A program made the translations under genes and the position numbers. From Aurantimonas endophytica (GTDB taxonomy: Bacteria; Pseudomonadota; Alphaproteobacteria; Rhizobiales; Rhizobiaceae), in assembly GCF_014196845.1 (NCBI RefSeq), contig NZ_JACIEM010000003.1:496001-560000 (forward strand): a stretch of DNA of 64,000 nt. The letters are read 5' to 3'. Below are positions 33,578 through 51,136 of this stretch, piece after piece. Position 1 is the stretch's first letter; each line of letters opens with the position of its first letter. The notes under the pieces are model-generated. The model searched no databases. It saw nothing but the letters and a program-made list of their open reading frames with translations, and was not told where the DNA came from.

Positions 33578-34339
33578 CTATCGCGCTGGCGGTGCCAGAA
33601 GCGACGGCAGGGCGGGCCAGGAGACGACGGGTGGATCCGGCGCGAGCAGATCGAGCAGCCCGGCAAGCAGCGTCCAGGCCGCTTCGTCGTGCTGCAGATG
33701 ATGACTGAGCAGGCCGATCGGCTCGCTCAACGATCCGGCGGCGGTGCGCCGTGCGATCTCCCCGGCGAGCCGCGCGTCGGCCTCGGCCGGAGACAGCCCG
33801 CGCCTCGCGCGCCAGTCGATGATGTCGAGATGGGTGTTCACCTGATGCGGCGGGGCGCCGGCAGCCGGGCCGAATATCGAGAGGACCGGCAGGCCGAGCC
33901 CCGGCAGCGCGGTGCGGAACCCGGCGCCGACGCGGTTCCAGGGCGGCACGAAGACCGGCAGCAACTGGCGCGGGAAGAGGCCGGCAAGCGCCGCATGACC
34001 GGCCGCGACCTCTTCCCGCATCACGCCCGGCGGCCGATGGTCGCCGAATTCGGCACGCTTCTCGCTCCCGGGCGCATGGTTTTCATGACAGAGCCCGTGC
34101 TGCAGGAGGGCAACGTCCGCTTCGCCAAAGAGCCTGTCGGCGAGCGCGCGCCCGCTGCCGGCCGGTATCGCCGCCAGCGCCAGCGGCACCGCCGTCGCGC
34201 GGCGCAGCGCCAGCAGCCGGTCAAGCGCGGCGCCGGGCGCCTCGACGTCGTCGTCGCGCCACCACAGGTGGAGGCGGCATCCGGCTTGCCGCGCCGCGTC
34301 GAGCCGCGCGGCGGCCAGCGGGAACAGTGCCCGGCTCAC
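33578..34339 (-). CDS. Polysaccharide-deacetylase-like protein (cluster left edge)
   Basis: A 253-aa protein with NodB-fold hallmarks: the metal-binding WWRDDDVEAP (Asp-Asp), LLQHGLCHENH, FVPPWNR and the late LLSHHLQHDE histidine. No signal peptide is seen, so a cytoplasmic or cytoplasm-facing enzyme on a nucleotide- or lipid-linked sugar is possible. The start ATG overlaps the upstream glycosyltransferase stop by 4 nt (ATGA). A clear paralogue sits at 53342-54118 at the other edge of the cluster. Confidence 0.78.
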   Translation of the reverse strand: MSRALFPLAAARLDAARQAGCRLHLWWRDDDVEAPGAALDRLLALRRATAVPLALAAIPAGSGRALADRLFGEADVALLQHGLCHENHAPGSEKRAEFGDHRPPGVMREEVAAGHAALAGLFPRQLLPVFVPPWNRVGAGFRTALPGLGLPVLSIFGPAAGAPPHQVNTHLDIIDWRARRGLSPAEADARLAGEIARRTAAGSLSEPIGLLSHHLQHDEAAWTLLAGLLDLLAPDPPVVSWPALPSLLAPPAR

Positions 34340-35577
34340 GCTTCCTGGTGCTCGGCGGCGCGGCGCAGCAGTCGCGCGACCGCGTCGATGCCGGGCTCGG
34401 GCGAGAAGGCGGCGCGCACCCGCGCCTCGCCGGCTTCGGCCAGCGCGGCGGCCAGGGCCGGCTCGTTCATCAGCCGGGCGATCGCCGCCGAAAGCGCTGC
34501 CGGGTCGCGGGATTCCACCAGCAGGCCGGTGACGCCGTCCTCGACGAGCTCGGGAATTGCCGAGATGCGCGTCGAGACGACCGGCAGTCGGTGCGCCTGC
34601 GCCTCCATCAGCACGTTCGGCAAGCCGTCGCGATCGCCGGACCGGGCGATGCGCGAGGGCAGGACGAAGAGATCGGCGCCGCCCAAGAGCTTGAAGACGT
34701 AGTCGCGTTCGCGCGCCCCGTGCCAGGTGATGCGCTCGCCGATCCCGGCCCGCGCCGCCTGCGCTTTCAGCCTCTCCGTCAGCGGGCCGCCGCCGACATG
34801 GTCGAGATGCCAGTCGCGATGCTTGAGCCTGGCCAGCGCCCGGACCAAGTCGCCAAACCCCTTCTTCTCGACGGTGCGCCCGATCGTCACGATGCGGAAC
34901 GGCCCCTTGCGGCCGTGCGGCGCCGGCGGGCGGACCTCGGAGAGGTCGAGGCCGTGATAGACCAGCCGCACGCGTGCCGGATCGGCCGCGAGGCCTTGGA
35001 GTTGTTTGAGATTGACCTTGGTGCAGGTGACGCCGAAGGCGGCGGAGGCGAGCTTGTCGCGCAGTTCCCAGTCGGGGCTCGTCCAGATGTCCTTGGCATG
35101 CGCCGAGAACGACCAGCCGACGCCGAGGATCGCCGCGGCATAGCGGGCGACGGAAGCCGGCGTGTGGAGATAATGGGTGTGGATCCAGCGAACGTCGCCC
35201 GGCAGTTCGCGGGCAAGGACGCAGGCCTGGCCGAAGCGGCGATGGCGGTTCGCCGTCCTGTCGCGGGCAAGATCGGCCTCGAATATCTCGCGCGCGGCCT
35301 CATAACCCGGCTGGCGCTCGGCGAAGTCCCGGCCAGCGCGCACCCGCTGCGGATCGTCCTTCAGATATTCCGGCAGATACAGGATCTCGGCGCGGATCCG
35401 GCGATGCACCGGATGCAGCTGCCCTTCCGCCGGCTGCCGCAGCGAGACGATCAGCTGGTCGATGCCGCGCGCCTCGAGCCCGGCGATCTCCTGCGCGATG
35501 AAGGTCTCCGACAGGCGCGGATAGCCTTTCACGAGGGTCGCGATGCGCCCTCTGACGGGATGCGCCCGATCATCCAA
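34336..35577 (-). CDS. Glycosyltransferase family 4 protein
   Basis: A 413-aa GT-B enzyme. The N-terminal acceptor domain has LVKGYPRLSETFIAQEI, a block shared by exopolysaccharide GT4 enzymes, then HTHYLHTPASVARYA. The C-terminal nucleotide-sugar domain has IVTIGRTVEKKGFGDLVRAL and GLPNVLMEAQAHRLPVV. The apparent start is TTG at 35577; a GTG shortly before KGYPRL is less likely because it would cut a beta strand. It is first in a two-gene unit with the deacetylase-like gene and divergent from the peptide-type ABC transporter genes. Confidence 0.85.
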   Translation of the reverse strand: MDDRAHPVRGRIATLVKGYPRLSETFIAQEIAGLEARGIDQLIVSLRQPAEGQLHPVHRRIRAEILYLPEYLKDDPQRVRAGRDFAERQPGYEAAREIFEADLARDRTANRHRRFGQACVLARELPGDVRWIHTHYLHTPASVARYAAAILGVGWSFSAHAKDIWTSPDWELRDKLASAAFGVTCTKVNLKQLQGLAADPARVRLVYHGLDLSEVRPPAPHGRKGPFRIVTIGRTVEKKGFGDLVRALARLKHRDWHLDHVGGGPLTERLKAQAARAGIGERITWHGARERDYVFKLLGGADLFVLPSRIARSGDRDGLPNVLMEAQAHRLPVVSTRISAIPELVEDGVTGLLVESRDPAALSAAIARLMNEPALAAALAEAGEARVRAAFSPEPGIDAVARLLRRAAEHQEA

Positions 35578-35792: not shown

Positions 35793-37766
35793 ATGCGGGA
35801 AACGACCAGGGCGGGATTGGCGCGGCGGCGGGGCAGCCGTTCCGTCGCCTTGGCTTTGTCGCTCTATCTGGCCTTGCCCGGATTTCCCCGCGCTGAAGCC
35901 GGACCGGTCGAAACCGCGGGGCTCGCCGCCGCCGTTGCCGACGGCAGCCTGCCGCCGATCGCCGAGCGCCTGCCGTCGCTGCCGCGAGTCATGCCGATCC
36001 ACAGCGCCTGCCCGAGCGACCAGCTGGGCGGCACGCTGCGGATGCTCGGCGGCAGCGCCAAGGACACGCGCAACCTGCCGGTCTTCGGCTATTCGCGCCT
36101 CGTCGGCTACGACACCGATTTCAACATCGTCCCGGACATTGCCGCCGGTGTCGATGTCGAGGATGGCCGCGTCTTCAATTTTCACCTCCGCCCCGGCATG
36201 CGCTGGTCCGACGGCGCACCGTTCACCTCCGAGGACTTCCGCTATTTCTGGGAAGACATGGCGAAGAACCCGGCGATCGCGAAATTCGGCGTGCCGGTCG
36301 AGCTCCTCGTCGACGGCGAGGAACCGCACGTCAGCTTCCCCGGTCCCTACGAGGTCCGCTATGCCTGGAGCCGGCCGAACCCCAATTTCCTCGCCTCCCT
36401 GGCGGCGGCAACGCCGCTCGAGATCTTTCGCCCGGCCCATTATCTCAAGAAGTTCCACGCCAGCCATCAGGACGAGGCCGCGCTGGCCGCGAAGGTCGAG
36501 AAGGCGGGCCAGCGCAACTGGGCCGCGCTGCATTTCAACAAGGATCGCAGCCAGCGCAACGACAATCCGGACATGCCGACAATCCAGCCATGGAAGCTCG
36601 CTACCGAGCCGCCGGCGGAACGGCTGATCTTCGAGCGCAATCCCTATTTTCACCGCGTCGACCAGGAGGGGCGGCAGCTTCCCTATATCGACCAGGTATC
36701 GCTCACCGTCGCCAATCCGGAGCTGATCCCGGCCAAGGTGGCGAATGGCGAGGCAGACCTGCAGGCCGCTTACCTGGCCTTTCCGAACTATCCGTTCCTG
36801 AAGCGCGGCGAGGCCCGCAGCGACTACACGGTACGGCGCTGGCGTTCGGGGCGCGGCTCGCACGTGACGCTGTTTCCGAATCTGAACGCCGCCGACCCTG
36901 TCTGGCGCGCAGTGCTGCAGACCGCAGATTTCCGGCGCGCCCTGTCGCTGGCGATCAATCGCGACGATATCGACAAGGCGATCTTCTACGGGCTGGCCGA
37001 GCCGGCGGCCAACACGATCCTGCCCGGATCGAAGCTCTTCGACCCGGCGCTGCGCACGAGCTGGGCCAATTATGACCCGCAGGCCGCCAACGCGCTGCTC
37101 GACAGGCTCGGCCTGATGCGCGGGCCGAACGGGCTGCGCCGCCTCCCCGACGGGCGCGAGATGCGGATCGTCGTCGAGACCGCCGGCGAAAGCAGCGAGC
37201 AGAGCGACGTCCTGGAACTCGTTCGCGAGGATTGGCGCAAGATCGGCATCGACCTCCTCACCCGGGAAGCCCAGCGCGAGATATTTCGCAACCGCGTCAA
37301 GGCGGGCTCGACGCTGATGTCGGTGTGGAGCGGGCTCGACAACGGCCTGCCGACGCCGGCAACGGATCCGCGCGAACTTGCGCCGGCGACCGCCGAGCAG
37401 CTGCAATGGCCGGGCTACGGCATGTGGGTGGAAACCGGCGGCACCGGCGGCGAGGCGCCCGGCGACGTCGCGGCCTTGGCCGGCGTCCGGGATCTGATTG
37501 CCCTGCGACGTGCCTGGCGGGAGACCCTCGACGAGGCCGAGCGGACGGCGATATGGAAGAAGATGCTGGCGATCAACGCCGACGAGGTCTTCACCATCGG
37601 CATCGTCACCGAGGTCGACCAGGTGGTCGTCGTCTCGAACAAGCTGAACAACGTGCCGACGCGCGGCGTCTACAATTACGATCCGGGGGCGTATTTCGGC
37701 ATCTACAATCCGGACGGCTTCTATTTCGACTGCGCGGCCGTGGCGGTGGCAGGCAACCCCTCGTGA
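35793..37766 (+). CDS. ABC transporter substrate-binding protein, family 5 (oligopeptide type)
   Basis: A 657-aa periplasmic binding protein. It has a signal peptide ending near GFPRAEAGPV. The SBP_bac_5 fold is visible from LGGTLRMLGGSAKD, FHLRPGMRWSDGAPFTSEDF and ADFRRALSLAINRDDIDKAI. It is longer than DppA/OppA (about 540), like the large variants that bind bulky ligands. It is followed by two permease genes with GTGA and ATGA overlaps. The matching ATPases are encoded on the opposite strand at 45229-47250. The ligand could be a peptide, glycopeptide or oligosaccharide. Confidence 0.88.
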   Translation: MRETTRAGLARRRGSRSVALALSLYLALPGFPRAEAGPVETAGLAAAVADGSLPPIAERLPSLPRVMPIHSACPSDQLGGTLRMLGGSAKDTRNLPVFGYSRLVGYDTDFNIVPDIAAGVDVEDGRVFNFHLRPGMRWSDGAPFTSEDFRYFWEDMAKNPAIAKFGVPVELLVDGEEPHVSFPGPYEVRYAWSRPNPNFLASLAAATPLEIFRPAHYLKKFHASHQDEAALAAKVEKAGQRNWAALHFNKDRSQRNDNPDMPTIQPWKLATEPPAERLIFERNPYFHRVDQEGRQLPYIDQVSLTVANPELIPAKVANGEADLQAAYLAFPNYPFLKRGEARSDYTVRRWRSGRGSHVTLFPNLNAADPVWRAVLQTADFRRALSLAINRDDIDKAIFYGLAEPAANTILPGSKLFDPALRTSWANYDPQAANALLDRLGLMRGPNGLRRLPDGREMRIVVETAGESSEQSDVLELVREDWRKIGIDLLTREAQREIFRNRVKAGSTLMSVWSGLDNGLPTPATDPRELAPATAEQLQWPGYGMWVETGGTGGEAPGDVAALAGVRDLIALRRAWRETLDEAERTAIWKKMLAINADEVFTIGIVTEVDQVVVVSNKLNNVPTRGVYNYDPGAYFGIYNPDGFYFDCAAVAVAGNPS

Positions 37767-38761
37767 TCCGGTATCTCGGCGGGCGTCTCTTCACCATGGC
37801 CTGGACGCTCGTCGCCATCAGCGTCATCGTCTTCGTCATCATCCAGCTGCCGCCAGGCGACTACCTGACCAGCTACATCGCCGAGCTGCAGGCCCAGGGC
37901 GAAACCGTCAGCGGCGACAAGATCGCCTTCCTGCGGGAGGAATACGGTCTCGACCGCCCGCTCTGGGAGCAATATCTCGTCTGGGCCGGCGGCCTTCTCC
38001 AGGGCGATCTCGGCTATTCGTTCGAGTACAACCAGCCGGTTGCCGACATCGTCGGCGACCGCATGCCGATGACCATCCTGCTCAATGCCGCCACGATCCT
38101 CTTCGTCTACCTGGTGTCGTTCCCGATCGGCATCTACTCGGCGACGCATCAGTATAGCTGGGCCGATCACGGGCTGAGCTTCCTCGGCTTCCTGGGGCTG
38201 GCGACGCCGAACTTCCTCTTGGCGCTGATCCTGCTCTATCTCGCCAATGTCTGGTTCGGCACCTCGATCGGCGGGCTGATGGCGCCGGAATTCATCGACG
38301 AGCCTTGGTCGCTGGCCAAGATCGGTTCGGTCCTGTCGCATCTCTGGGTGCCGGTGCTGGTCATCGGCACCGCGGGAACTGCCGGCATGATCCGGCGGCT
38401 GCGGGCGAACCTCCTCGACGAGCTGAACCGGCAATATGTCGTCACCGCCCGGGCGAAGGGCCTGACGGAGGGCCGCCTGCTGCTGAAATACCCGCTGCGC
38501 ATGGCGCTCAACCCGTTCGTCGCCGACCTCGGCACGCTGCTGCCGCAGATCGTTTCCGGGTCGGTGATCATCTCGGCGGTGATGTCGCTGCCGACGACAG
38601 GGCCGATGCTGCTCGCGTCGCTGCGCAGCCAGGACATGTATCTCGCCGGCTCGTTCCTGATGTTCCTCGCCGTCCTCACCGTCGTCGGCATGTTCGTCTC
38701 CGACGTGCTGCTCGCTTTGCTCGATCCCCGGATCCGGCTGGGCAAGAGCACGCCGCGATGA
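37763..38761 (+). CDS. ABC transporter permease, DppB type
   Basis: A 332-aa membrane protein with about six transmembrane segments, starting with the usual RYLGGRLFTMAWTLVAISV. The periplasmic loop carries LREEYGLDRPLWEQYLVW and the EAA loop is VVTARAKGLTEGRLLLKYPL, which docks to the ATPase. The start is GTG in a GTGA overlap with the binding-protein gene, so the two are translationally coupled. Together with the next gene it forms the import channel. Confidence 0.9.
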   Translation: MIRYLGGRLFTMAWTLVAISVIVFVIIQLPPGDYLTSYIAELQAQGETVSGDKIAFLREEYGLDRPLWEQYLVWAGGLLQGDLGYSFEYNQPVADIVGDRMPMTILLNAATILFVYLVSFPIGIYSATHQYSWADHGLSFLGFLGLATPNFLLALILLYLANVWFGTSIGGLMAPEFIDEPWSLAKIGSVLSHLWVPVLVIGTAGTAGMIRRLRANLLDELNRQYVVTARAKGLTEGRLLLKYPLRMALNPFVADLGTLLPQIVSGSVIISAVMSLPTTGPMLLASLRSQDMYLAGSFLMFLAVLTVVGMFVSDVLLALLDPRIRLGKSTPR

Positions 38762-39912
38762 GCAGCCTGCCGCATTTCGTCTCGCAGGAGCGCTTCGACC
38801 CGGAGGCGACGATCGCCGAGGGCTCGATCGTTTCGGGCGCCTATGCGCGGGCCTCGCAGGCGAAGCTGATCTGGTGGCGATTCCTGCGCCACCGCGTAGC
38901 CGTGGTATCGCTGGCCTTCCTCCTGATCAGCTACGTCTCGATCGCCTTCATCGAGTTCCTGGCGCCCTACGAGCTGCAGTCGCGCCACACCGACCACATC
39001 TTCGCCCCGCCGCAATCGGTGCATCTGTTCCACGAAGGCAGCTTCGTGGGCCCGTTCGTCTATCCGCTGCAATACCAGCTGGACCTCGACACGCTGCGCC
39101 GCGTCTATACGTCCGACACCAGCCGACCGATGCCGCTCCGCTTCTTCTGCCAGGGCGAGACCTACCGTTTCTGGGGCCTCGTCGAGGCACAGACCCACCT
39201 CGTCTGTCCGCCCGAAGGCGGCACGCTGTTCCTGCTTGGCACCGACCGCCTCGGACGGGACATGTGGTCGCGCATCCTCTACGGCGCGCGCATATCGCTC
39301 ACCGTCGGCCTGGTCGGGGTGACGCTCAGCTTCCTGCTCGGCATCACCATCGGCGGGGCGGCGGGCTATTTCGGCGGCTGGGTGGATTCGGTCGTCCAGC
39401 GTGTCACCGAAATCCTGCGCTCGATCCCGGAACTGCCCCTCTGGCTGGCGCTTTCGGCGGCGCTGCCTGTCACCTGGAGCCCGCTGCTCGTGTATTTCGG
39501 GATCACGCTGATCCTGGCGCTGCTCGACTGGCCGGGGCTTGCCCGCGCCGTCCGCTCCAAGCTGTTCGCGCTGCGAGAGGAGGATTTCGTCGTGGCCGCG
39601 GAGATGCTCGGCGCGCGGCCGCGCCGGATCATCTTCCGCCATCTCCTGCCCAATTTCATGAGCCATCTGATCGCCTCGGCGTCGCTGTCGATCCCGACGA
39701 TGATCCTCGCCGAGACGGCGCTGTCCTTCCTCGGCCTCGGCCTGAGGCCGCCGATCACCAGCTGGGGCGTGCTCCTCTCGGAGGCGCAGAACATCGAGGC
39801 GGTGGCGCTCTATCCGTGGCTGCTTTTGCCGATGCTGCCGGTGGTGCTGACGGTCCTCGCCTTCAGCTTCGTCGGCGACGGGCTGCGCGACGCCGTCGAC
39901 CCGCACCATTGA
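38758..39912 (+). CDS. ABC transporter permease, DppC type
   Basis: A 384-aa permease with N-terminal TM (AVVSLAFLLISYVSIAFIEF), a large periplasmic insertion of about 130 residues, then LLGTDRLGRDMWSRILYGAR and the EAA loop VAAEMLGARPRRIIFRHLLP. It is longer than typical DppC (about 300) because of the insertion, which also occurs in permeases paired with large binding proteins. Its start overlaps the previous stop as ATGA. It converges with the cyclase gene, leaving only 9 nt between stops and no terminator. Confidence 0.9.
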   Translation: MSSLPHFVSQERFDPEATIAEGSIVSGAYARASQAKLIWWRFLRHRVAVVSLAFLLISYVSIAFIEFLAPYELQSRHTDHIFAPPQSVHLFHEGSFVGPFVYPLQYQLDLDTLRRVYTSDTSRPMPLRFFCQGETYRFWGLVEAQTHLVCPPEGGTLFLLGTDRLGRDMWSRILYGARISLTVGLVGVTLSFLLGITIGGAAGYFGGWVDSVVQRVTEILRSIPELPLWLALSAALPVTWSPLLVYFGITLILALLDWPGLARAVRSKLFALREEDFVVAAEMLGARPRRIIFRHLLPNFMSHLIASASLSIPTMILAETALSFLGLGLRPPITSWGVLLSEAQNIEAVALYPWLLLPMLPVVLTVLAFSFVGDGLRDAVDPHH

Positions 39913-39921
39913 CGCCGGCGA

Positions 39922-41157
39922 TCATTCCGCTGCGGCGGCCAGCCCGAGCGCGGCCTGGGTCTCCGGGCAGAGCGTGAACAGCTCCATTTGCCGCTCGACG
40001 CCGTTGAGCATGTGCAGCCCCGTAGAACACCAGCGACCGGGCACCAGAGCGGCGACATTGGCGCTGGCGAGCACATTCGTGTCGAGCGACTTGGTCAGCT
40101 TCTCGATGCGCTCCACCTCGGTCACGGTCGAGCCGATGACGGTGAAGGCAAGCCGTTCGGGCACACCGATATTGCCGAAGACGACTTCGCCTATATTCAG
40201 GCCGATGCCGAACTCGATCAGGTCCCGTCCGGCGGCCGCGCGAACGGCGTTGGCCTCGTCGCGCATCTTGAACGACTCGCCGACGGCATCCAGAACCCGG
40301 GCGGTGATCGCCTCCGGGTCGGTTTCCTCGTCGATCGGATAGATCACCAGGACCGCGTCGCCGATGAAGGCGAGAACCTCGCCGCCGGCACGGATCGCCG
40401 GGCGGGCGGCGCATTCGAAATAGTCGTTGAGGAGCTGGAGGAAGTCTTCGCTCGGCAGACTGCCGGTGAGCCGCGTCGAGTTTCGCAGGTCCGAATACCA
40501 GACGAGTGCCCGCGTGGTGGCGCCGCCGCCGAGACGGATATTGCCGTTGAGCACGCTCCGGCCGGCCTTCTGGCCGAGATAGGTCTCGACGATGTTGCTG
40601 GTGATCTGCGACTGGATGATCGACTTGCAGGCCAGCGCGAAGGACTGCTGGATCTCCTGCAGGACCCGCAGGTCCTCGTCGGTGAAACCGGCAGCGCGGT
40701 CGCTGGCCCAGATCACGATGATGCCGCCCGGGCGGCCCTCCATGAACATGCCCGGTTCGGAGAATTCGGTCCGCAGCGCGAGATAGTCGGTGTAGCCCTC
40801 CGCGGCGAGTTCCTCGAACAGCGGAAAGTCGAGCGTATGGCCAGGCCCCACGAGACGGCGCCGCAGTACCGGCAGATCGGCCTCCAGCATATAGCGCAAG
40901 GGGCTGCGCTGCCACGCGTCGGTGTTGGCGTCCTGGTGATGGAAGTGATCCAGCACGGCTGAAGGCTGGTTGCGATGCCAGCTGATCATCTCGGCGCGGA
41001 ACAGCGGATGCAGGGTCGGCCAGTTGAGCCGCGCCCGGGCGATCGGCACGCCGATGCCGTTCAGCCGTTGGCACAGCTGCTCGAAAATGGTTTCCAGCCT
41101 CGGCTTGCCGAGGGCTTCCTTCAGCAGCCAGTCGTCGACCTGTTGCGTCAGGCTCAT
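39922..41157 (-). CDS. Class III adenylate/guanylate cyclase (writer of the triad)
   Basis: A 411-aa soluble protein. The first half resembles the N-terminal domain of many rhizobial cyclases (RARLNWPTLHPLFRAEMISW) with a GAF-like stretch. The C-terminal class III catalytic domain has metal-binding Asp223 in VWYSDLRNST and Asp267 in EVLAFIGDAVL. The region FTVIGSTVTEVERIEKL differs from the usual GDxVNLAARLE: the substrate Asp is Ser and the transition-state Asn is Thr, while Arg350 is kept. Product nucleotide and full activity are therefore uncertain. Its ATG directly abuts the stop of the hydrolase gene (TAG-ATG). Confidence 0.85.
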   Translation of the reverse strand: MSLTQQVDDWLLKEALGKPRLETIFEQLCQRLNGIGVPIARARLNWPTLHPLFRAEMISWHRNQPSAVLDHFHHQDANTDAWQRSPLRYMLEADLPVLRRRLVGPGHTLDFPLFEELAAEGYTDYLALRTEFSEPGMFMEGRPGGIIVIWASDRAAGFTDEDLRVLQEIQQSFALACKSIIQSQITSNIVETYLGQKAGRSVLNGNIRLGGGATTRALVWYSDLRNSTRLTGSLPSEDFLQLLNDYFECAARPAIRAGGEVLAFIGDAVLVIYPIDEETDPEAITARVLDAVGESFKMRDEANAVRAAAGRDLIEFGIGLNIGEVVFGNIGVPERLAFTVIGSTVTEVERIEKLTKSLDTNVLASANVAALVPGRWCSTGLHMLNGVERQMELFTLCPETQAALGLAAAAE

Positions 41158-42012
41158 CTAGCCCGCCTCCACGATCCGTACCCGTTCGGCGATATCGAGA
41201 GTGAGACCGGTTTCCGCAACCAGCATTCCCGGAAAAACCGCCTGCGCCCGCCCGACGAGATCGGCGAGCCAAGTGTCGGTCCGGGAGATGTCATGGTGAA
41301 AGGCGACGAGGCGGGGCACGCCGGCGGCGCGGCAGAGCCGCACGCCCTCTTCCCAGGTCGAGTGCCCGAAGCCGCGATACTTGGGATATTCCTCGTCCGT
41401 ATACATGCTGTCGTAGATCATGATGTCTGCGCCTTCGATGAGGTCGCAGATACCCTGGTCGAGGCCGCCGGCGCGGTGTTCGGTGTCGGTGATGTAGCAG
41501 ACGGCCCGGCCGCCATATTCGACCCGATAGCCGACCGCGCCATTGGGGTGGTTCAGCCGCACGGTGCGGATGCGCACGTCCGGGAACAGGTCGAGCACGT
41601 CGGGCGGCCGGAAGTCGCAGTATTTGATGTCGGCGGCGAACTGCTTCGGCGTGACCGGGAAGTAGGGCGGGCACATGAAGCGCTCCACCATGTTCCGGCA
41701 GGTCGTGTTGTCCTCGAAATGCCCGGCATGGATGCGCACCGACGTGCCCGCATGATAGAGCGGCATGAAGAACGGCAGGCCGATGATATGGTCGAAATGG
41801 CAGTGGGTGAGCAGCACGTCGACGTCGCGCACCTCGCCATTGTAGAGTTTGCGGCCACAGCCGACGATCCCGGTGCCGGCATCGAGCACGATGACATGGT
41901 CACCGCAGCGCAGCTCGACGCAGCTCGTGTCGCTGCCGAAGCGTGTATTGGCGGCGGCGGGCGCCGGGATGCTGCCGCGCGCGCCCCAGATGGTCAGTTC
42001 GAACCGGCTCAA
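41158..42012 (-). CDS. Metallo-beta-lactamase-fold hydrolase, probable cyclic nucleotide phosphodiesterase (eraser of the triad)
   Basis: A 284-aa MBL-fold protein. Metal ligands are visible: THCHFDHIIG (H70, H72, D74, H75), LNHPNG (H155), DTEH (D176) and HHD near 240. The beginning FELTIWGARGSIPAP and the motif GHSTWEEGVRLCRAAGV put it in the group that includes cyclic-nucleotide-degrading enzymes such as Apyc1 and PhnP-type phosphodiesterases. The start is TTG in a TTGA overlap with the cNMP-binding gene; no ATG fits. Between a cNMP reader and a cyclase, degradation of cNMP is the simplest role (inference). Confidence 0.8.
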   Translation of the reverse strand: MSRFELTIWGARGSIPAPAAANTRFGSDTSCVELRCGDHVIVLDAGTGIVGCGRKLYNGEVRDVDVLLTHCHFDHIIGLPFFMPLYHAGTSVRIHAGHFEDNTTCRNMVERFMCPPYFPVTPKQFAADIKYCDFRPPDVLDLFPDVRIRTVRLNHPNGAVGYRVEYGGRAVCYITDTEHRAGGLDQGICDLIEGADIMIYDSMYTDEEYPKYRGFGHSTWEEGVRLCRAAGVPRLVAFHHDISRTDTWLADLVGRAQAVFPGMLVAETGLTLDIAERVRIVEAG

Positions 42013-42482
42013 GCCTCGCCGCCTCTCGACGCCGCGAGATTGCGCGCGCGGACAAGCTCCTCGTTGGTGTGGGTCAGGCGTTCGGCGAGACCGCGCATGA
42101 CCTCCGCGGCGATCTCGGGGAACTGTTTCAAGAGCTGCAGGAACGACTCCTTGCGCACCCTGAGCGCGGTCAGGCCGGTCCGGGCGGTGACCGTCGCGGT
42201 GCGGGGCGTGTCGCATAGGATCGATATCTCGCCGACGACGTCGCCTGAGCGGAGCGTCGCGACCAGATAGTCGCCGGCCTCCGTTGCCACGGAAACGTCG
42301 GCTTCGCCATCCACCAGCACATAGGCCGCGTCACCGGGCTGCCCCTGCCGGCAGATGACCTGCCCGGCACGATAGGCGATCGAATCCGAGGTGAAGGCGA
42401 TCAACTTGAGCCGCGCCGGCTCGATGCCGGCAAATATCGGCACGGACCGCAAGAGGTCGATTTCGGACTTCAGGAGCGTCAC
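42009..42482 (-). CDS. Stand-alone cyclic nucleotide-binding domain protein (reader of the triad)
   Basis: A 157-aa single cNMP-binding domain without a DNA-binding domain. The phosphate-binding cassette is GDVVGEISIL followed by PRTATVTA (Glu85, Arg94, Thr95). The Arg that contacts the cyclic phosphate is present. A C-terminal helix of about 35 residues (EVMRGLAERLTHTNEELVRA) may form a coiled coil to a partner protein, for instance the ABC-like protein encoded 39 nt upstream. It is not a Crp-type transcription factor because no helix-turn-helix follows. Confidence 0.85.
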   Translation of the reverse strand: MTLLKSEIDLLRSVPIFAGIEPARLKLIAFTSDSIAYRAGQVICRQGQPGDAAYVLVDGEADVSVATEAGDYLVATLRSGDVVGEISILCDTPRTATVTARTGLTALRVRKESFLQLLKQFPEIAAEVMRGLAERLTHTNEELVRARNLAASRGGEA

Positions 42483-42521: not shown

Positions 42522-45227
42522 TCACGCAGGCTCATCGACCGGATGCGGGACATGGGCGTCGATCATGGTCATCCGGCCATCCCGAAATTCCAGGGTCCGG
42601 TCGAAGAAATGCGCGTGTTCGGCATGGCTGAGAACCCAGAAAACCGTTTGCCGCGGGACACCAAGGGCCTCTCGCGAGGCAAGGACGCGCCCAATTGTCG
42701 CCTGCTGGCTGTCCCCGTCAAGGGCCGAGAGCGGTCGGTTGAGGACGAGCAGGTCCGGCCGCTTCAGCAATGCCCGCGCCAGAGCCAGCTTCTGCTGCTG
42801 CCCGGCCGACAGCCGCTTGGCACCGCTGCCGATGTCGAAGTCGAGGCCGATCTCGAACACCACCTCGGCGAGGCCGGTATCGTAGAGCGTGGCCACCAGC
42901 ACCTCGTTGATCCGCGCCGCGGCCTCGGCATAGCGGTCGACCACGCGCCCGAACAGCACATTGTCCTGGAAGCTGGCAGCGGGATTGAGCGCCGTCGGCG
43001 AATGCACCGATACCGCCTGGGCAAGGTCCGGCTCGAGCTTTTCGCCGAAGCGGGCACGGGCCGCCAGCACCGCGCTCCTGATCCGGTCGTCGAGAAGGCC
43101 CAGCCTGTGCTTGGGTTCGATATAGCCGAAGGCGAGTTCCTGGAAGGCTCGCCGATACTTGCCGGAATGGGGCCCCTCGCCCGAGGTGCGGCGCAGCGCC
43201 GTGCGATAGTCGTCCACCTCGTCCGGCGACATCAGGTCGACGCTCTCCATCAGCGGATTGTCCGGCGACAGGTCGCCGAAGATCTCGATCAGGGTCTCGG
43301 CGATCTGCCGTCCCATATCGAAGAGCATGACGTCGAGCCCGGTCTGCTTGAGCACCTCGCGCATCTGCGGGCGCTCGGCCAGCGAATTGCCCATCAACGC
43401 CTCTGGCAGCGGAATGCCGAAGACGAGGTTCTCGATCAGCGACGCGTAGTCGGAATAGCGTTCCGGATCGAATGTCTCGAAATAGTCCTCGTCGCCGCCC
43501 TCCGCGAGCCGCTCGCGGAACCGCGCGCGGGCCGCGAGCACCCGTGGCCCGACCTCCTCCGGCAGATCCGCCGGAAGCCGGTTGCGCAGGCCTAGACGGG
43601 CGATGTCGACCCGCAGTTCGACGATCTCGAGCACCTCCGCCAGCCGCCCGGAGAGCTGCTGCGGGCCTTCGATCCCCGCCGCGGCGTAGTCGATCCATTC
43701 TTCCGGGCAAAGGCTGCTGGCGTCACCCGATCGCCATGCCTCGGAGAGCCGCTCCGGGTCCGGCCGCCCGGTGCCGTCGTGGCCGTTAACGGGTGCGTGA
43801 CGCAGGCCGTAGACGAGCGCGTCGCGCACCGACATCTGGGCGAAATAGAGCCCGGAGGTGCTGTAGCCGAAGCGTCGTCCGACGAAGGCATCGGGAAGAC
43901 TGTCGAGCGAGCGGCCATCAATGCTGATCCGCCCGCTGGCGGGTTCGACCAGGCGGACCAGAGCGTCGGCCAGGTATTCGCCGCCGCCGCTGACCGGCCC
44001 CACGGCCGCAACCGCCTCGCCGGGCGCCAGCCGCAGGCTGGTCGGCTCGAGGAGATCGTTGCCGCTCTCGTCGGCGATCCTGAGGCCAACGATGGCGATA
44101 TCGCCCTCGATGTGCGGCGGTGTCTCCTGCGAGACCTTCTGACGTTCCGGGTCGATCAGGTCCGGCATGGTGAACTGCTCGGTGATCTGGGCGTATTTCG
44201 ACTGCACGTCGACGCGGAACTGGTCCCAGGCGATGAGCTCCTTGAGCGGCGCGGGAAGATCCTTATAGGCGGCGATGACAGCGACGAGCTGGCCGATATC
44301 CAGCTGCCCGACGATGACGAAATAGCCGCCGGCGAGATAGAAGATGAAGGGTGTCGTCTGGGCCAGCAGGTTGTTGATGAAGTTGACCAGGAACTTCCAG
44401 CGGAAGAAGTCGGTGCGGATCTGCAGGATGCGGCCGAGCCGCCCGCCGATCTCAGCCCGCTCCCAGCTCGACGTGTCGTTGACCCGGATCGACGGGATGC
44501 TGTCGACGATCTCGCCGATCCGGCCGGACAGAAGCCGGGCGGTCAGCTGCCGGGCTCGCGCCAGGACCACGAGGCGCCGGCGCATGCGCGGAATGATGAT
44601 CAGCTGGACGAGCACCACCGCGCCGGCGACGCCGCCGAGCCAGACATTCTGCAGGAAGATGAACAGCAGCGCCGTGGCCGCCTGGCTGAGCAGCAGCGCC
44701 GGATCGGCGAAGGCGCTGCCGCCGAAGCCGCCGACAGGCTCGGTCTCGTCCTTGACCATCGAGGCGATCTCGGGCCCGCGCACCTGCTTGAACCGTCCGG
44801 TCGGAAACCGCAGCACGCGATCGACCAGATCGTAGCGAAGGCGCCTGAGCAGCCGCTCTCCGAGCTGGCCCTTGTAGTTCGAGAGATAGAACTTGAAGAG
44901 CCCGTTGACGACGACGAAGAACAGGAAGGTGAGGCTGAGCGCCACCAGCATGCCGAACCGGTCGACCTCGATGCCGCCGAACAGCTGCAGCGTGCCGCCG
45001 CCGAGGAAGTCCGGCAGGGTCGGCGTCCAGCGGAACAGCGGCTGCGTCTCGCCCGCCGCCCATTCGCCCTGGATCGGACCGTTGACGATCCGCTTCGGCA
45101 GGTCGAGCGTCAGGTAATAGAGCGGCAGCGACAGCGCGAGGACGAAGAACAGCCAGAGCTGCTGGCGCTTCGTATGGCGCCAGACATAGCCGAAGATGCT
45201 CTCGTCGAGCTGGTCCCCCCTTGCCAT
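42522..45227 (-). CDS. Degenerate ABC-exporter-like protein with expanded nucleotide-binding domain
   Basis: A 901-aa protein. Residues 1-340 form an ABC-exporter membrane domain with about six TM segments. The following ATPase domain is abnormal. Its P-loop reads VGPVSGGGEY (409-418) without the Lys-Ser/Thr. The Walker B is LLVLNRPLSALD, where Asp-Glu became Asn-Arg. The signature LSAGQQQK (806-813) and His868 remain. P-loop and signature are about 390 residues apart instead of about 100, filled by modules that repeat the normal helical-subdomain start (SVRDALVYG 466, LIENLVFG 597, FQDNVLFG 753). The ATG at 45227 follows GGAGGG. Confidence 0.8.
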   Translation of the reverse strand: MARGDQLDESIFGYVWRHTKRQQLWLFFVLALSLPLYYLTLDLPKRIVNGPIQGEWAAGETQPLFRWTPTLPDFLGGGTLQLFGGIEVDRFGMLVALSLTFLFFVVVNGLFKFYLSNYKGQLGERLLRRLRYDLVDRVLRFPTGRFKQVRGPEIASMVKDETEPVGGFGGSAFADPALLLSQAATALLFIFLQNVWLGGVAGAVVLVQLIIIPRMRRRLVVLARARQLTARLLSGRIGEIVDSIPSIRVNDTSSWERAEIGGRLGRILQIRTDFFRWKFLVNFINNLLAQTTPFIFYLAGGYFVIVGQLDIGQLVAVIAAYKDLPAPLKELIAWDQFRVDVQSKYAQITEQFTMPDLIDPERQKVSQETPPHIEGDIAIVGLRIADESGNDLLEPTSLRLAPGEAVAAVGPVSGGGEYLADALVRLVEPASGRISIDGRSLDSLPDAFVGRRFGYSTSGLYFAQMSVRDALVYGLRHAPVNGHDGTGRPDPERLSEAWRSGDASSLCPEEWIDYAAAGIEGPQQLSGRLAEVLEIVELRVDIARLGLRNRLPADLPEEVGPRVLAARARFRERLAEGGDEDYFETFDPERYSDYASLIENLVFGIPLPEALMGNSLAERPQMREVLKQTGLDVMLFDMGRQIAETLIEIFGDLSPDNPLMESVDLMSPDEVDDYRTALRRTSGEGPHSGKYRRAFQELAFGYIEPKHRLGLLDDRIRSAVLAARARFGEKLEPDLAQAVSVHSPTALNPAASFQDNVLFGRVVDRYAEAAARINEVLVATLYDTGLAEVVFEIGLDFDIGSGAKRLSAGQQQKLALARALLKRPDLLVLNRPLSALDGDSQQATIGRVLASREALGVPRQTVFWVLSHAEHAHFFDRTLEFRDGRMTMIDAHVPHPVDEPA

Positions 45228-45228
45228 C

Positions 45229-47250
45229 TCACCCTCCGGTGGCGGCGCCGGCGGGCGCTGCGGCGAGGAAGTCGACATTGGCTGCACGGACGAAGTGGCC
45301 GGGCGCGGCTTCGAGCAGTGGCCTGTCGCGGGCCTCGACGACGGCGAACGGTTCCGGCCAGTCGCGATGCCCGATCTGCCCGACGGCCGGCAGATGGTCG
45401 AAATCCAGCGGCCGGGACGGGTCGGCATGCGGCACCGCCTGCATCAGCAGGCGGGTATAAGGATGCAGCGGCGCGCGGAACAATTCCTCGCGCGGCGCGA
45501 GTTCCACGATCTCGCCGTCGCACATCACCGCGATCCGGTCGGCGACGTAGTTCACCACCGCCAGATTGTGCGAGATGAACAGGTAGGTCAGGCCGCAGAG
45601 ACGCTGGAGGTCCTTCAGGAGGTTGAGGATCTGCGCCTGGACCGAGACGTCCAGCGCCGCCACCGGCTCGTCGCAGATCAAGAGTTCCGGCTCCAGCGCC
45701 AAGGCCCGGGCGATGCCGATCCGCTGGCGCTGCCCGCCGGAGAAGCTGTGCGGGTAGCGGCCGGCATATTGCGGCTCGAGCCCGACGGCGGCAAGCAGCC
45801 GCTCGACCCGTTGCCGCCGGTCGCCGGCGACGCCGATCCCATGGATTTCCAGCGGTTCGGCGAGGATCGCGCCGACCGTCATGCGCGGGTCGAGCGAGGA
45901 GAACGGATCCTGGAAGACGTACTGCATCCGCCGCCGCGCCTCGAAGAGCGGCTGGCGCGAGGCCGAGGCGAGGTCCACCGTCCCCTCCCGGCCGCCATGC
46001 AGGAGCACCGAGCCTGTCGTCTGCGGCACTGCCCCCATGATGGCCCGCGCCAGCGTCGTCTTGCCGGAGCCGGATTCGCCGACGAGGCCCAGGCACTCGC
46101 CGCGCCTGACGGTGACCGAGACGTCGCGAAGCGCGTGGATGGTCAGCCCCGGCGCCCGCGACAGCAGCCGCCGGTCCCGCCGCAGCGAGAAACTCTTGCT
46201 GAGCCCCCTGACCTCGAGGAGCGGTGCCCCGGGCGGCACCTGGTCCGCATCCTCGCCGCGCTGCATCAGCGCCTTTGCATCGACCTTGATCTCGCGGATC
46301 GGCTTCAACCGCCGCGCGTCGCCCGGTTCGAGATCGGGCACCGCCTTCATCAGCGAGATCAGATACGGATGCTGCGGCTCATGGAAGATCGCCGCCGCCG
46401 TACCCGACTCCACGACCCGGCCGTGATGCATCACCACCACTTCCTCGGCGAGATTGGCCACCACGCCGAGATCGTGGGTGATCAGCAGCACGGCCATCTT
46501 CAGCCTGGCCTGCATGTCGCGCAGCAGCTTGATGATCTGCGCCTGCAGCGTCACGTCCAGCGCGGTGGTGGGCTCGTCGGCGATCAGCAGCGCCGGCTTG
46601 GCGATCACCGCCATGGCGATCATCGCCCGCTGGCGCAGCCCGCCGGAGAGTTCGAACGGATAGGATCGCATGGCCCGCGCGGGGTCCGGAAAGCGCACCA
46701 GCCGCAGCGTCTCCAGCGTCAGCTCGCGCAACTCGGCGCCGCTGGCGCGGCCATGCACTTCCAGCACCTCGCCGATCTGGTCGCCGAGCGTGTGCAGCGG
46801 CGAGAACGACGTCATCGGCTCCTGAAAGACGATCGAGATCGCCCGGCCGCGGATCGCCCGGAAACGCGCGCTGCGCGGCGACAGGGCAGCGAGGTCGACG
46901 AGCCCCTGCTCCGGGTCGCGGAAGAGGATGCGGCCCGAGGTGATCGCCGCGCTTTTCGGCAGAAGGCCGAGGATCGCCTGCGACGTGACGGACTTGCCGG
47001 AGCCGGATTCACCGACGAGCGCGACCGTGCGCCCCGCCCCGACCCGCATCGAGAGGCCGGAGACCGCCTTGACCATGCCGGCCATGGAGCGGAACTCCAC
47101 CGACAGATCCTCGATCGACAGGAGCGTGTCGGCCGCAGGCCCGGCGCTCGTCGCGAGGGGCAGGCGTTCCAGAACCGGTGCGTCGCTGGCCAAACCGGCC
47201 CCCTCCCCGACCACGAACGAAGGCGGCGGCGAGCCGTGCGGGCGGTTCAC
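45229..47250 (-). CDS. Fused double ATPase of oligopeptide-type ABC transporter (DppD-DppF fusion)
   Basis: A protein of about 673 aa with two complete ATPase domains. The first has [17 protein letters not shown] and [12 protein letters not shown]; the second has [17 protein letters not shown] and [12 protein letters not shown]. Both carry the oligopeptide-family C-terminal block with HPYLISLM or HPYTRLLM. It should energise the DppB/DppC-type permeases encoded on the opposite strand at 37763-39912, since no other matching permease is nearby. The start is uncertain: GTG at 47250 is preferred, and an ATG at 47340 is possible. The next gene begins 1 nt after its stop. Confidence 0.88.
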
Positions 47251-47356
47251 GCGACGGCCACCGCGAGGCCAGTCGAGAAGCCGCGACGCGCCGATCGCGC
47301 GCCACCCGCGGGAGCGCTGCAACCCCTGCCGGCATAGCATCTGGGCTGCTGGCAAG

Positions 47357-48547
47357 TCATGCCGATTTTCGCCCCTCGGGAGATCGCGCATCAGCGGCCG
47401 GAGCCGCGGCCAACGCGCCTTGCGCCAGCGCCTCGATCATCCGGGCGGCATGGGCCGCGCCTTCGAGGTCCATGGCCGGGCGCGGCCTGGCCGATCCGGC
47501 CAATGCGGTGCCGATCGCCGCCGTAAGCGCGTCCGGCGTCAGGGCCGTCTCCGAAACCACCGAAAGCAGGCCGAGCGCTTCCATGCGCCGGGCACGGTAT
47601 TCCTGCTCGGTCTCGTCCCCCTCGGCATAGGGCACCACCACCGCCGGCACTTCGGCCCGCAAGAGGTTCATCACCGTGTTGTAGCCGGCCTGCGAGATCG
47701 ACAGCGCGCAGCCGTCCAGACGCGCCTGGAACTGCGGATCGAAGCGCTCGACGATCGTCCGCTCGTCGGCATGGCTGCGCAGATCCCGAAACACGTCCTC
47801 CGGGCAGCGCGGCCCGGTGAAGAAACGCCAGACGCGGTCGGCAAGCGGCGTCTGCGGGCGCGCCGCCATGGCCGTCGCCAAGAGCGAGCCTGCGGCCGCG
47901 CCGCCGCCGGCCGAGACGATCACGTCGCCGGTCGGCACGCCCTTGCGCCGATCGCCCGCCTCCGTGACATAGCCGGTGTAGTGGATACGGTCGGCAAGGC
48001 TGGCAGCGTGCGGATAGGTCTCGTCGAAGGTGAACAGTGCCGGGTCGGAATGGACCAGCACCGCATCCAGATGGTCCCGCGCCAGCTCGGCGCCCCGGGC
48101 CGCCCGTTCCGGATGCTTGGTCTCGACCAGTATGTCGCGGACCGAGGCGACGCACTTGACCCGCGGCCGGTCGAGAGCGGCCCGCGCCAGCAGCGGCTCG
48201 AGCTCGAAGCGGAACCGCCAGCGGCCGAACGGGAACATCTCCATGAGCACGATGTCCGGCTGCAGCCGCTCGTAGACGGCGAGCAGCGCGTCGCGCCGCG
48301 CATCCCGCCAGGCGTCGGTGACGGGGTTGTCCTCGCCGTCATAGAGGATCTTGAAGTTCGCTCCGTCGAGCCGAACCGGCGGCAGCTGCGCGATGTCTGC
48401 GCCGGCGAACGGCATCTCGGCGACCGGCATGCCGCCGAGCGCGACGGTCACCGCCATGCCGCGATCGGCCATGGCCGCGACGAGCAGTTCGGCGCGGCGG
48501 AGATGGCCGACGCCGAGCAGATGCTGGACATGGAACAGGACGCGCAT
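47357..48547 (-). CDS. MurG-like predicted glycosyltransferase (COG4671-like), copy 2
   Basis: A 396-aa GT-B protein starting MRVLFHVQHLLGVGHLRRAE. The C-terminal donor-binding half includes DVIVSAGGGAAAGSLLATAM, LSISQAGYNTVMNLLRAEVP and EYRARRMEALGLL, as in MurG and diacylglycerol glucosyltransferases. It is paralogous to 49704-50957. The ATG at 48547 forms TGATG with the stop of the preceding GT4 gene. The acceptor is unknown. Clustering with deacetylases and a transporter suggests a glycan or glycolipid. Confidence 0.8.
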   Translation of the reverse strand: MRVLFHVQHLLGVGHLRRAELLVAAMADRGMAVTVALGGMPVAEMPFAGADIAQLPPVRLDGANFKILYDGEDNPVTDAWRDARRDALLAVYERLQPDIVLMEMFPFGRWRFRFELEPLLARAALDRPRVKCVASVRDILVETKHPERAARGAELARDHLDAVLVHSDPALFTFDETYPHAASLADRIHYTGYVTEAGDRRKGVPTGDVIVSAGGGAAAGSLLATAMAARPQTPLADRVWRFFTGPRCPEDVFRDLRSHADERTIVERFDPQFQARLDGCALSISQAGYNTVMNLLRAEVPAVVVPYAEGDETEQEYRARRMEALGLLSVVSETALTPDALTAAIGTALAGSARPRPAMDLEGAAHAARMIEALAQGALAAAPAADARSPEGRKSA

Positions 48548-49707
48548 CAGCCCGCCACCGCCTGAAGCCGCCCGCCGCAATCGGCGGCGACGGCGCAAAG
48601 CGCCGCGTCGAGCCGTGCGGCGGCGACGTCCATATCGTGATGCGCCAGCGCCCACTCGCGTGCCGTCTGCCCCATCGCCGACCGCGTCGCCGGATCGAGC
48701 AGCCGCCTGACGCCGTCCGCAAAGCCGGCGACGTCGCCTTCCGCCGCCAGGAAACCGGTGACGCCGTCCGCGACGACGCCGGCGACACCGCCGCTCCGCC
48801 CGGCGACGACCGGCAGTCCCGCCGCCTGCGCCTCGATGAATGCCATGCTCCAGGATTCCTTGATCGCCGGCCAGACATAGAGGTCGGCAGCAGCGTAGAG
48901 TTCGGGAAGCTCGGCGGGCTCCGCCGCGCCGTGAAAGACGACGCGGGACCCGAGCGGCGCGAAGGCGGCCCTGACCGCGGCTTCGGCGGAACCCGCTCCG
49001 ATCACCAGAAGCTGGAAGCCCGGCGCTTCGATCCCCGCCAGCGCCGCCGCAAGCACGCGATAGGAGGCAAGCTTCTGATCATCGCGCATCATCGCCACCG
49101 TGATCAGCCAGGGCAGCGCGGGGGCCAGCCCATGGCGGGCGGCGAGCATGGCGCGGGTTGCCGCGCGGGCGCCGGTTGCGGCCACGAAGGGCCGCGCGTC
49201 GACGAAAGGCGGCAGATCGAGATAGCCCGCCTGCGGCTTGAGATGCGCCGCGACGCCCGGCCGGTCGGCCGGATTGAGCCCGATCACCAGCTCGGCGCGT
49301 GCGAGGGCTGCAAGGCTCGCCTCATAGCCCGTGTTCCACCGACCGCCGCGCTGCTTGCCCGCGACCGAGGCCTCGGCGACGACGTAGGGAATGCCGAGAT
49401 GCGCGGCGACGCGTGGCCCGATCCAGTCGGGCGCCTTGTGATAGAGGTGATAGGTGAACCACAGGTCGAACGGGCGGGCCTGCCCCGCGTGACGCGCGAC
49501 GAGCCTGTCCGCGACCCGCCGGCCGAGGCCCCGCAGCCGGCGCTGGCGCGCTTGATCGCCGCGGTCGTAGCTGCGCAGGCGGGTCGGAATCACGACCTCG
49601 TGGCCCGCCTTCCGCAGGGCCGCGACCAGCATGCGGCCGACCGTGCGGTCGCCGGAAGGTGTCGGATCGTCCAGCGCCTTCATCGGCGCATAGAACGCCA
49701 CTCTCAT
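48547..49707 (-). CDS. Glycosyltransferase family 4 protein
   Basis: A 386-aa GT-B enzyme. It starts MRVAFYAPMKALDDPTPSGD. The C-terminal GT4 donor site is present: FHGAAEPAELPELYAAADLY and ESWSMAFIEAQAAGLPVV, with the EX7E-type pattern. The ATG overlaps the upstream stop by 4 nt (ATGA), and its own stop overlaps the next start, so the three glycosyltransferases are translationally coupled. Sugar and acceptor cannot be told from sequence. Confidence 0.83.
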   Translation of the reverse strand: MRVAFYAPMKALDDPTPSGDRTVGRMLVAALRKAGHEVVIPTRLRSYDRGDQARQRRLRGLGRRVADRLVARHAGQARPFDLWFTYHLYHKAPDWIGPRVAAHLGIPYVVAEASVAGKQRGGRWNTGYEASLAALARAELVIGLNPADRPGVAAHLKPQAGYLDLPPFVDARPFVAATGARAATRAMLAARHGLAPALPWLITVAMMRDDQKLASYRVLAAALAGIEAPGFQLLVIGAGSAEAAVRAAFAPLGSRVVFHGAAEPAELPELYAAADLYVWPAIKESWSMAFIEAQAAGLPVVAGRSGGVAGVVADGVTGFLAAEGDVAGFADGVRRLLDPATRSAMGQTAREWALAHHDMDVAAARLDAALCAVAADCGGRLQAVAG

Positions 49708-50957: not shown

Positions 50958-51136
50958 CAAAAACTCCTGGCACCGCTGCCCTGCTTCCTGCACCATACAG
51001 TGGCGTCTTTTCTGCTGCGACGCAAGATCGCATGGCCCGGCTTCGGCTGCTTCGGCGGATGCTGCACCGAGATGGTGCCGTCTTCGCCGCATACACGGCC
51101 GCGGACCGCAGGACAACGGCGAGCCAAGGCGCTGAC

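Follow-up and report, generated by a model that had tools for sequence, protein, structure and literature searches.

A conserved pair of a cyclic-nucleotide-binding protein and a degenerate ABC-exporter-like protein in a glycosyltransferase cluster of Aurantimonas endophytica

Cyclic-nucleotide-binding (CNB) domains regulate a membrane protein or a partner protein in the SthK and MloK1 channels and in PKA regulatory subunits. In their phosphate-binding cassette, a glutamate contacts the ribose and an arginine contacts the phosphate. The family TIGR03896, which we take to be the CNB proteins that accompany NHLP bacteriocin exporters, ties a CNB to an ATP-binding cassette (ABC) exporter. Pycsar anti-phage systems combine a class III cyclase (PycC) with a CNB effector. 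In class III cyclases a pair of aspartates binds the metal, a lysine and an aspartate specify the purine, and an asparagine serves the transition state. We analyzed a locus of Aurantimonas endophytica (GCF_014196845.1, contig NZ_JACIEM010000003.1, positions 496,001–560,000 of the forward strand; this stretch of 64,000 nt is called the window below). It encodes a stand-alone CNB protein, an ABC-exporter-like protein (pABC), a metallo-beta-lactamase (MBL)-fold hydrolase and a class III cyclase. We read these genes as a pseudo-transporter module controlled by a cyclic nucleotide (cNMP), set inside a cluster for glycan synthesis and an Opp-type importer, and put the probability of this reading at about one half.

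The CNB protein is the constant partner of pABC. The best-supported unit is this pair and not a set of three genes for CNB, MBL and cyclase. We compared 80 named loci, the best of at least 560 confirmed pABC relatives; 70 of these loci are full-length. CNB adjoins pABC, downstream and on the same strand, in all 80. A panel of 60 genomes, that of A. endophytica included, contains pABC homologs in 29. In 27 of the 28 genomes other than that of A. endophytica, CNB is the same-strand gene that directly follows pABC, and in the 28th (L078) the two are fused. CNB is likewise downstream of pABC in 26 of the 29 loci sampled across the class with 1.5-kb flanks. A single pABC::CNB polypeptide is encoded in eight loci of seven genomes (L078, L079, a contig-end fragment, and L162–L167). 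Pfam confirms the fusion in the five proteins scanned and in Azospirillum B510. With a line at 140 bits, all 29 genomes with pABC have a CNB ortholog and none of the 31 without it does. The line was drawn after the scores were known, between the neighboring values of 149 and 124 bits, which takes some force from the split. A sequence-only reading of the window had proposed the ABC-like protein as the probable partner of the CNB reader. Adjacency, natural fusions and the genome distribution (both present in 29, both absent in 31) all bear this out. At 1e-100, pABC is found in 96/289 sampled genomes of the Alphaproteobacteria, about a third; at 1e-60 and with another alignment, it is found in 32/398 genomes of the phylum.

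The reader had been described as free of DNA-binding and output domains, and Pfam agrees, finding PF00027 alone in the CNB protein. Its phosphate-binding cassette, GEISILCDTPRTATV, is canonical for the cNMP-binding type. Residues Glu85 and Arg94 are invariant across 20 aligned rows, and 135 of the 147 distinct CNB sequences from the fetched loci carry the strict cassette GE...RxA. The protein matches SthK, MloK1 and PKA regulatory subunits in sequence. Unlike in those systems, the partner here is ABC-like and not a channel or kinase, and the CNB is usually a separate protein. The link to an ABC exporter recalls the NHLP system (CNB scores 59 bits with TIGR03896 and pABC 113 bits with TIGR03796). 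However, both scores fall below the cut-offs (161 and 853), pABC is degenerate and the neighborhood is different. A second CNB paralog (94 bits) lies about 105 kb from the locus in the same genome (G000:C3:643617-644054).

Pfam recognizes in pABC the exporter membrane domain (PF00664) and part of the nucleotide-binding domain (NBD; PF00005), both above cut-off. An AlphaFold2 model from 31 sequences (pLDDT 82.6, pTM 0.76) finds type IV exporters in Foldseek, with E values from 7.8e-16 to 3.2e-13 among the 50 matches listed. The TM-scores are low, and the likeness is thus one of fold only. Like PCAT1, MsbA and TmrAB, pABC has the membrane-domain and NBD folds of a type IV exporter. It differs from them in the loss of catalytic residues, in a repeated helical subdomain and in its CNB partner or fusion. 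In the NBD alignment (124 of 127 sequences kept, three truncated ones dropped), 107 sequences lack the Walker A Lys and Ser/Thr and the Walker B Asp and Glu. All four residues are present in two sequences, both fused to a CNB. The window protein has G, N and R in place of the Walker A Lys and the Walker B Asp and Glu, and the residues of a working ATPase site are absent. The H-loop column holds His in 13/124. The signature-like region is recognizable in most members and reads LSAGQ in the window protein. Conservation is higher in the membrane domain (0.75) than in parts of the NBD (0.55–0.60).

The distance from Walker A to the signature is 395 residues in the window protein. Over 125 rows, with two truncated ones excluded, its median is 400 and it is never below 286, whereas the halves of the neighboring OppDF-like protein have 121 and 112. 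We compared profiles of the stretches A (455–584), B (585–741) and C (742–832; 907-residue numbering). B and C match at 97.6% (61 columns), A and C at 92.6% (57 columns) and A and B at 73%, over only 22 columns; twelve control pairs reach at most 1.1%. Because the stretches match each other and the control pairs do not, the insert is best explained as the Q-loop/helical subdomain repeated in tandem. The case is strong for two copies and fair for three. With the Walker residues gone and the helical subdomain repeated, pABC is probably a pseudo-transporter under cNMP control. Two observations on other loci may be added. In two Sinorhizobium meliloti records, NC_003078.1 (841744–844375; H64) and CP050561.1 (H63), the match to pABC is split in two, possibly by a frameshift, and in six others listed (H31–H36) it is continuous. 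Proteins of 381–413 amino acids in L178 and L181 (the latter on a 3.2-kb contig) match the pABC membrane domain only and are possible stand-alone relatives.

Sequence and Pfam agree with the proposal that the genes for CNB, MBL and the class III cyclase are directly adjacent. The first two share TTGA, and the MBL stop TAG abuts the ATG of the cyclase. The pABC gene is part of the same run, 39 nt ahead of CNB. Upstream, the stop codon of the oppDF-like gene (TGA, 45231–45229) and the ATG of pABC at 45227 are one base apart. Given this ATG and the length of the relatives (901 residues), the listed open reading frame of 968 residues (P0004) probably has 67 surplus residues at its N-terminus. The order pABC-CNB-MBL-cyclase is repeated in 10/10 loci of the closest relatives (L051–L060), which argues against a chance arrangement. 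The run belongs to a longer series of minus-strand genes, probably a single operon. Conservation of the order beyond close relatives stands for pABC-CNB; the exact three-gene order is kept only in part (direct CNB-MBL-cyclase order in 17/80 loci).

The MBL protein belongs by family to the type that includes cNMP phosphodiesterases. It has PF12706 and the motif [T/S]HxHxDH, here THCHFDH, which is present in 24/24 MBL sequences. This combination marks the atypical class-II phosphodiesterases (Rv1339, YhfI/6KNS and C. glutamicum CpdA), which are related to RNase Z (PMC9293780). A profile of the window family finds RNase Z at 4e-14, YhfI (6kns) at 1.2e-9 and, weakly, the anti-Pycsar enzyme Apyc1 at 0.008. 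From the motif and domain, phosphodiesterase activity is plausible. The more specific claim of a cNMP-phosphodiesterase type held at this family level and not in the scores, which lie nearer to RNase Z than to the cNMP phosphodiesterase model. MBL presence tracks pABC: 25/29 genomes with pABC have it versus 1/31 without (18/22 versus 1/31 when one genome is kept for the own genus). In the class sample the counts are 87/96 versus 49/193. No family match at E 1e-40 was found in 34/60 genomes. The gene lies within 8 kb in 42/80 named loci. For 43 pABC genes on the same contig as a listed MBL, the two are at most 30 kb apart in 30 cases and further apart in 13. Across the class, 5/29 MBL loci have a class III cyclase within 1.5 kb (L026, L028, L032, L033, L050). 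By eye, several class-wide MBL loci apparently adjoin a response regulator, as confirmed by Pfam for one of them, L033.

The operon cyclase scores above the PF00211 cut-off. In its catalytic-domain model (pLDDT 81.0, pTM 0.56), Foldseek matches CyaC (1wc1) at 2.3–2.4 Å. The fold (TMt up to 0.86), the metal-binding Asp pair and the Arg are as in CyaC and Cya2 (2w01). In contrast to these enzymes, A, S and T replace the Lys, Asp and Asn, and the six canonical positions read D-A-D-S-T-R. All 14 members of this cyclase group, the window protein included, share the changes (Lys to A, Asp to S/P/A, Asn to T) and keep the Asp pair and Arg. As the purine-specifying residues are lost, the operon cyclase of the Aurantimonas group may produce neither cAMP nor cGMP but a different cNMP. 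The N-terminal domain appears GAF-like from the order of helices and strands in the model. A second class III cyclase in the window (51032–52483) reads D-K-D-D-N-K; it keeps the usual Lys, Asp and Asn and has a second Lys where the catalytic Arg is expected. It falls in a cyclase group with Lys and Asn and with Lys instead of Arg. A similar cyclase lies on the same side in the relatives L082–L086. Among 96 cyclase rows, related cyclases of other loci read DSDSNR (14) or DDDPNR (four), and 25 rows have the canonical DKDDNR, the last including the cyclases of 550–620 residues found in many loci. Judged by these residues, the locus often has a more canonical cyclase, and the Aurantimonas operon enzyme is itself atypical. 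The one class III cyclase of 550–620 residues that was scanned (L069:7683-9461; 592 residues) carries a 2Fe-2S domain (Fer2) and is encoded directly upstream of pABC, which suggests a redox-sensing writer in some loci.

A cyclase lies within 8 kb in 42/80 named loci, and its type is swapped between loci. Counted in the full-length loci with 8-kb flanks, a cyclase is present in 37/70 and both MBL and a cyclase in 30/70. The R. johnstonii 3841 cyclase, about 10 kb upstream, is beyond the flank. The 60 genomes have a median of eight class III cyclases with pABC versus one without. In the A. endophytica genome, eight Guanylate_cyc matches in 5.04 Mb give an expectation of about 3% for a 19-kb stretch; for the genome with the most cyclases in the panel (23 in 5.7 Mb), it is about 8%. 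Since 37/70 were observed, although with a different model than the genome-wide counts, chance does not easily explain the link of cyclases to pABC-CNB. MBL and cyclases are common but exchangeable neighbors of the pair.

The module lies inside an old gene cluster, widely shared among Alphaproteobacteria, that encodes glycosyltransferases and an Opp-type importer. The 70 full-length loci contain the glycosyltransferases GT_A in 56, GT_B in 54, GT_C in 56 and all three in 53, and any Opp gene in 48. GT_A is present in 28/29 genomes with pABC (all except G041) versus 0/31 others, and in 21 of these 28 it is on the same contig within 20 kb of pABC. Opp genes and glycosyltransferases surround pABC in R. 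johnstonii 3841, Mesorhizobium WSM1497, Azospirillum B510 and Phyllobacterium, the last with a polysaccharide lyase as well. Of six class-wide stretches, four (L222, L223, L225, L226) repeat the order of MBL, opp genes, a deacetylase-like gene and glycosyltransferases. The pair pABC-CNB follows in L222, L223 and L226, and the L225 stretch ends before pABC. In L224 the Opp and glycosyltransferase genes run in the reverse sense and no CNB was recognized; L221 has no glycosyltransferase or oppABC gene within its 20 kb. The co-occurrence of GT_A with pABC suggests that the output of the module is the assembly or passage of a glycan.

In the window (Table 1), the plus-strand genes oppA-B-C (35793–39912) converge with the minus-strand run oppDF-pABC-CNB-MBL-cyclase. 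The locus has four glycosyltransferases, two deacetylase-like genes and two class III cyclases. Neither Pfam nor NCBIfam gives a match for the first deacetylase-like copy.

Table 1. Genes of the locus, with positions in the window
Feature	Position	Strand	Family match or basis
CNB, stand-alone cyclic-nucleotide-binding protein, 157 aa, GTG start	42009..42482	-	PF00027, 78.6 bits
MBL-fold hydrolase with THCHFDH motif, 284 aa; its TTG start overlaps the stop of CNB	41158..42012	-	PF12706 (Lactamase_B_2), 71.6 bits
Class III cyclase of the operon, 411 aa, ATG start	39922..41157	-	PF00211 (Guanylate_cyc), 32.2 bits, cut-off 21.9
pABC, type IV ABC-exporter-like, 901 aa, degenerate Walker A/B, repeated helical subdomain in NBD	42522..45227	-	
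oppDF-like protein, two NBDs keeping Walker A; reading frame as listed, true start probably further in	45229..47391	-	
GT_C, GT28-like glycosyltransferase; start at first conserved Met	47357..48547	-	PF04101
GTx, GT4-type glycosyltransferase; start at first conserved Met	48547..49707	-	PF13692, PF00534
GT_A, GT28-like glycosyltransferase; start by eye, query reading frame to 51116	49704..50957	-	PF04101
Second class III cyclase, 483 aa; membrane type from hydrophobic N-terminal half (by eye)	51032..52483	+	
oppA-like solute-binding protein	35793..37766	+	SBP_bac_5
oppB-like permease, GTG start by eye	37763..38761	+	64% identity to L090 permease
oppC-like permease	38758..39912	+	63% identity to L090 permease
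GT_B, GT4-type glycosyltransferase	34336..35577	-	
Polysaccharide-deacetylase-like, copy 1	33578..34339	-	name via annotated relatives and BLAST
Polysaccharide-deacetylase-like, copy 2	53342..54118	-	name via annotated relatives and BLAST

The cluster of about 17 kb in L222, L223, L225 and L226 also holds a Methyltransf_24-like gene, and three of these loci add a histidine-phosphatase-like gene. It recurs in distant Alphaproteobacteria, including one with a genome of 1.8 Mb (G135). PMC11103875 names pRL110056 as an O-antigen enzyme important for root colonization; judging from its number alone, this gene could be part of L184 (R. johnstonii 3841, pRL11) or a near neighbor of it.

A working scheme for the module can be proposed. 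A class III cyclase of the locus, either that of the operon or that at 51032–52483, or else the cell pool, would supply the cNMP. CNB would bind it through the intact cassette. Acting as a detached regulatory subunit, CNB would dock on the enlarged, ATPase-dead NBD of pABC and shift the conserved membrane domain into another state; that domain could serve as a gate, as a flippase brake or as a scaffold for glycosyltransferases. The MBL hydrolase would then remove the cNMP and reset the switch. Tentatively, pABC may be seen as a cyclic-nucleotide-gated pseudo-ABC transporter. This would be an exporter fold without use of ATP, gated or driven by a detachable CNB and controlling glycosyltransferases or glycan passage, often with a local hydrolase and cyclases; the proposal may well not hold in this specific form.

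Several findings weigh against a cNMP-controlled module. With the cNMP phosphodiesterase model NF041851, the MBL protein obtains 51 of the 400 bits required. It scores higher with RNase Z models, at 74.8 of 252 bits for NF000801, also short of the cut-off. In the A. endophytica genome no protein passes the cut-off of NF000801, the one RNase Z model tried, and the window MBL comes closest; of 14 control genomes, only 9 have a match that passes. The operon cyclase lacks the canonical residues for purine and transition state. CNB was not found within 1.5 kb in three of the 29 class-wide loci (L199, L207, L209), and 12/147 CNB sequences, five fused proteins among them, lack the strict cassette; four of the 12 are GD variants that retain the Arg. 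At E 1e-25, weaker CNB paralogs bring the count to 41/60 genomes. Shared ancestry inflates all Fisher values for co-occurrence, and the P values are optimistic. Neither MBL nor a cyclase is found within 8 kb in 25/70 full-length loci, and 11/70 have neither the glycosyltransferases nor the Opp genes searched. In 7/28 genomes GT_A is elsewhere in the assembly and not near pABC. Some of these points bear on the sequence-only reading as well, in which CNB, MBL and cyclase were a compact, self-contained circuit of reader, eraser and writer. We reject that circuit as a general unit, in view of the low counts of the direct order, the loci with neither enzyme, the swapped cyclases, the second cyclase, the non-canonical active site and the far larger cluster around the module.

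The CNB-pABC complex could also be real without the operon cyclase or the MBL, or both, acting as its writer and eraser. CNB would then read a cell-wide pool made by other cyclases, the operon cyclase would be weak, altered, inactive or a sensor, and the MBL would act on another substrate, RNA or a glycan or phosphodiester. We regard this as possible, and rather less probable than its opposite. The altered cyclase residues in 14/14 of the group, the closeness of the MBL to RNase Z, the exchangeable cyclase types and the eight Guanylate_cyc matches of the genome all fit it. MBL and cyclases are, however, enriched beside pABC-CNB, a cyclase also stands within 1.5 kb of some class-wide MBL genes (5/29), and the metal-binding Asp pair is present in all 14 cyclases. 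For the MBL itself, a housekeeping RNase Z or RNA-processing role may hold, because the A. endophytica genome has no NF000801 match above cut-off. Against this role are the 34/60 genomes lacking a family match and the way in which the gene follows pABC. That the genes are mere neighbors, co-transcribed in a surface-glycan island with no shared circuit, is suggested by the many Rhizobium and Sinorhizobium loci in which pABC-CNB has neither MBL nor cyclase within 8 kb. With pABC-CNB adjacent in 80/80 loci and fused in some, we consider this very improbable.

The function of pABC is a separate matter. It might still be an ATP-driven exporter, through non-canonical use of the nucleotide or as a heterodimer with another ABC protein, with CNB as an allosteric regulator. 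The retained signature-like region, the type IV exporter fold, the Walker A Lys and Walker B Asp-Glu of two fused members and the two-NBD OppDF protein encoded next door are consistent with such an exporter. However, 107/124 sequences lack all four key residues, the H-loop His is kept in only 13/124, and the Walker A–signature distance is about 400 residues as compared with 121 and 112 in the OppDF halves. OppDF-type NBDs, moreover, serve importers. An ATP-driven pABC is therefore unlikely. A Pycsar-like system, in which the cyclase makes cNMP upon infection and CNB with the membrane protein is the effector, would have the same cyclase fold and the same combination of class III cyclase and CNB, and PADLOC models match the cyclase (PycC, 63.8 bits) and the CNB part (PycTIR, 59.3 bits). 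These matches are confined to the shared domains, and Pfam finds PF00027 only in the CNB protein, with no TIR or transmembrane output domain. In distant Alphaproteobacteria, too, the locus recurs among glycosyltransferase and Opp genes, unlike mobile defense islands, and it has a hydrolase gene in the same operon. We hold an anti-phage role to be the least probable of these explanations, and unlikely by a wide measure.

We thus retain the cNMP-controlled pseudo-transporter as the working interpretation. Taken singly, all parts of the module are members of known fold families. Full-text searches of an open-licence library returned no account of an ATPase-dead exporter fold that has repeated helical subdomains and is paired with, or fused to, a cNMP-binding protein; such an account may still have been published. 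To our knowledge, many class III cyclases of these bacteria have no known target beyond Crp-type regulators. With the pABC-CNB pair, a membrane protein becomes a conserved candidate for a cNMP target outside transcription. In pABC, an ABC fold would have been stripped of its ATPase residues in evolution, with the membrane domain kept. The question that it raises, the role of pABC-CNB for the co-occurring glycosyltransferase cluster, is approachable in ordinary rhizobia.

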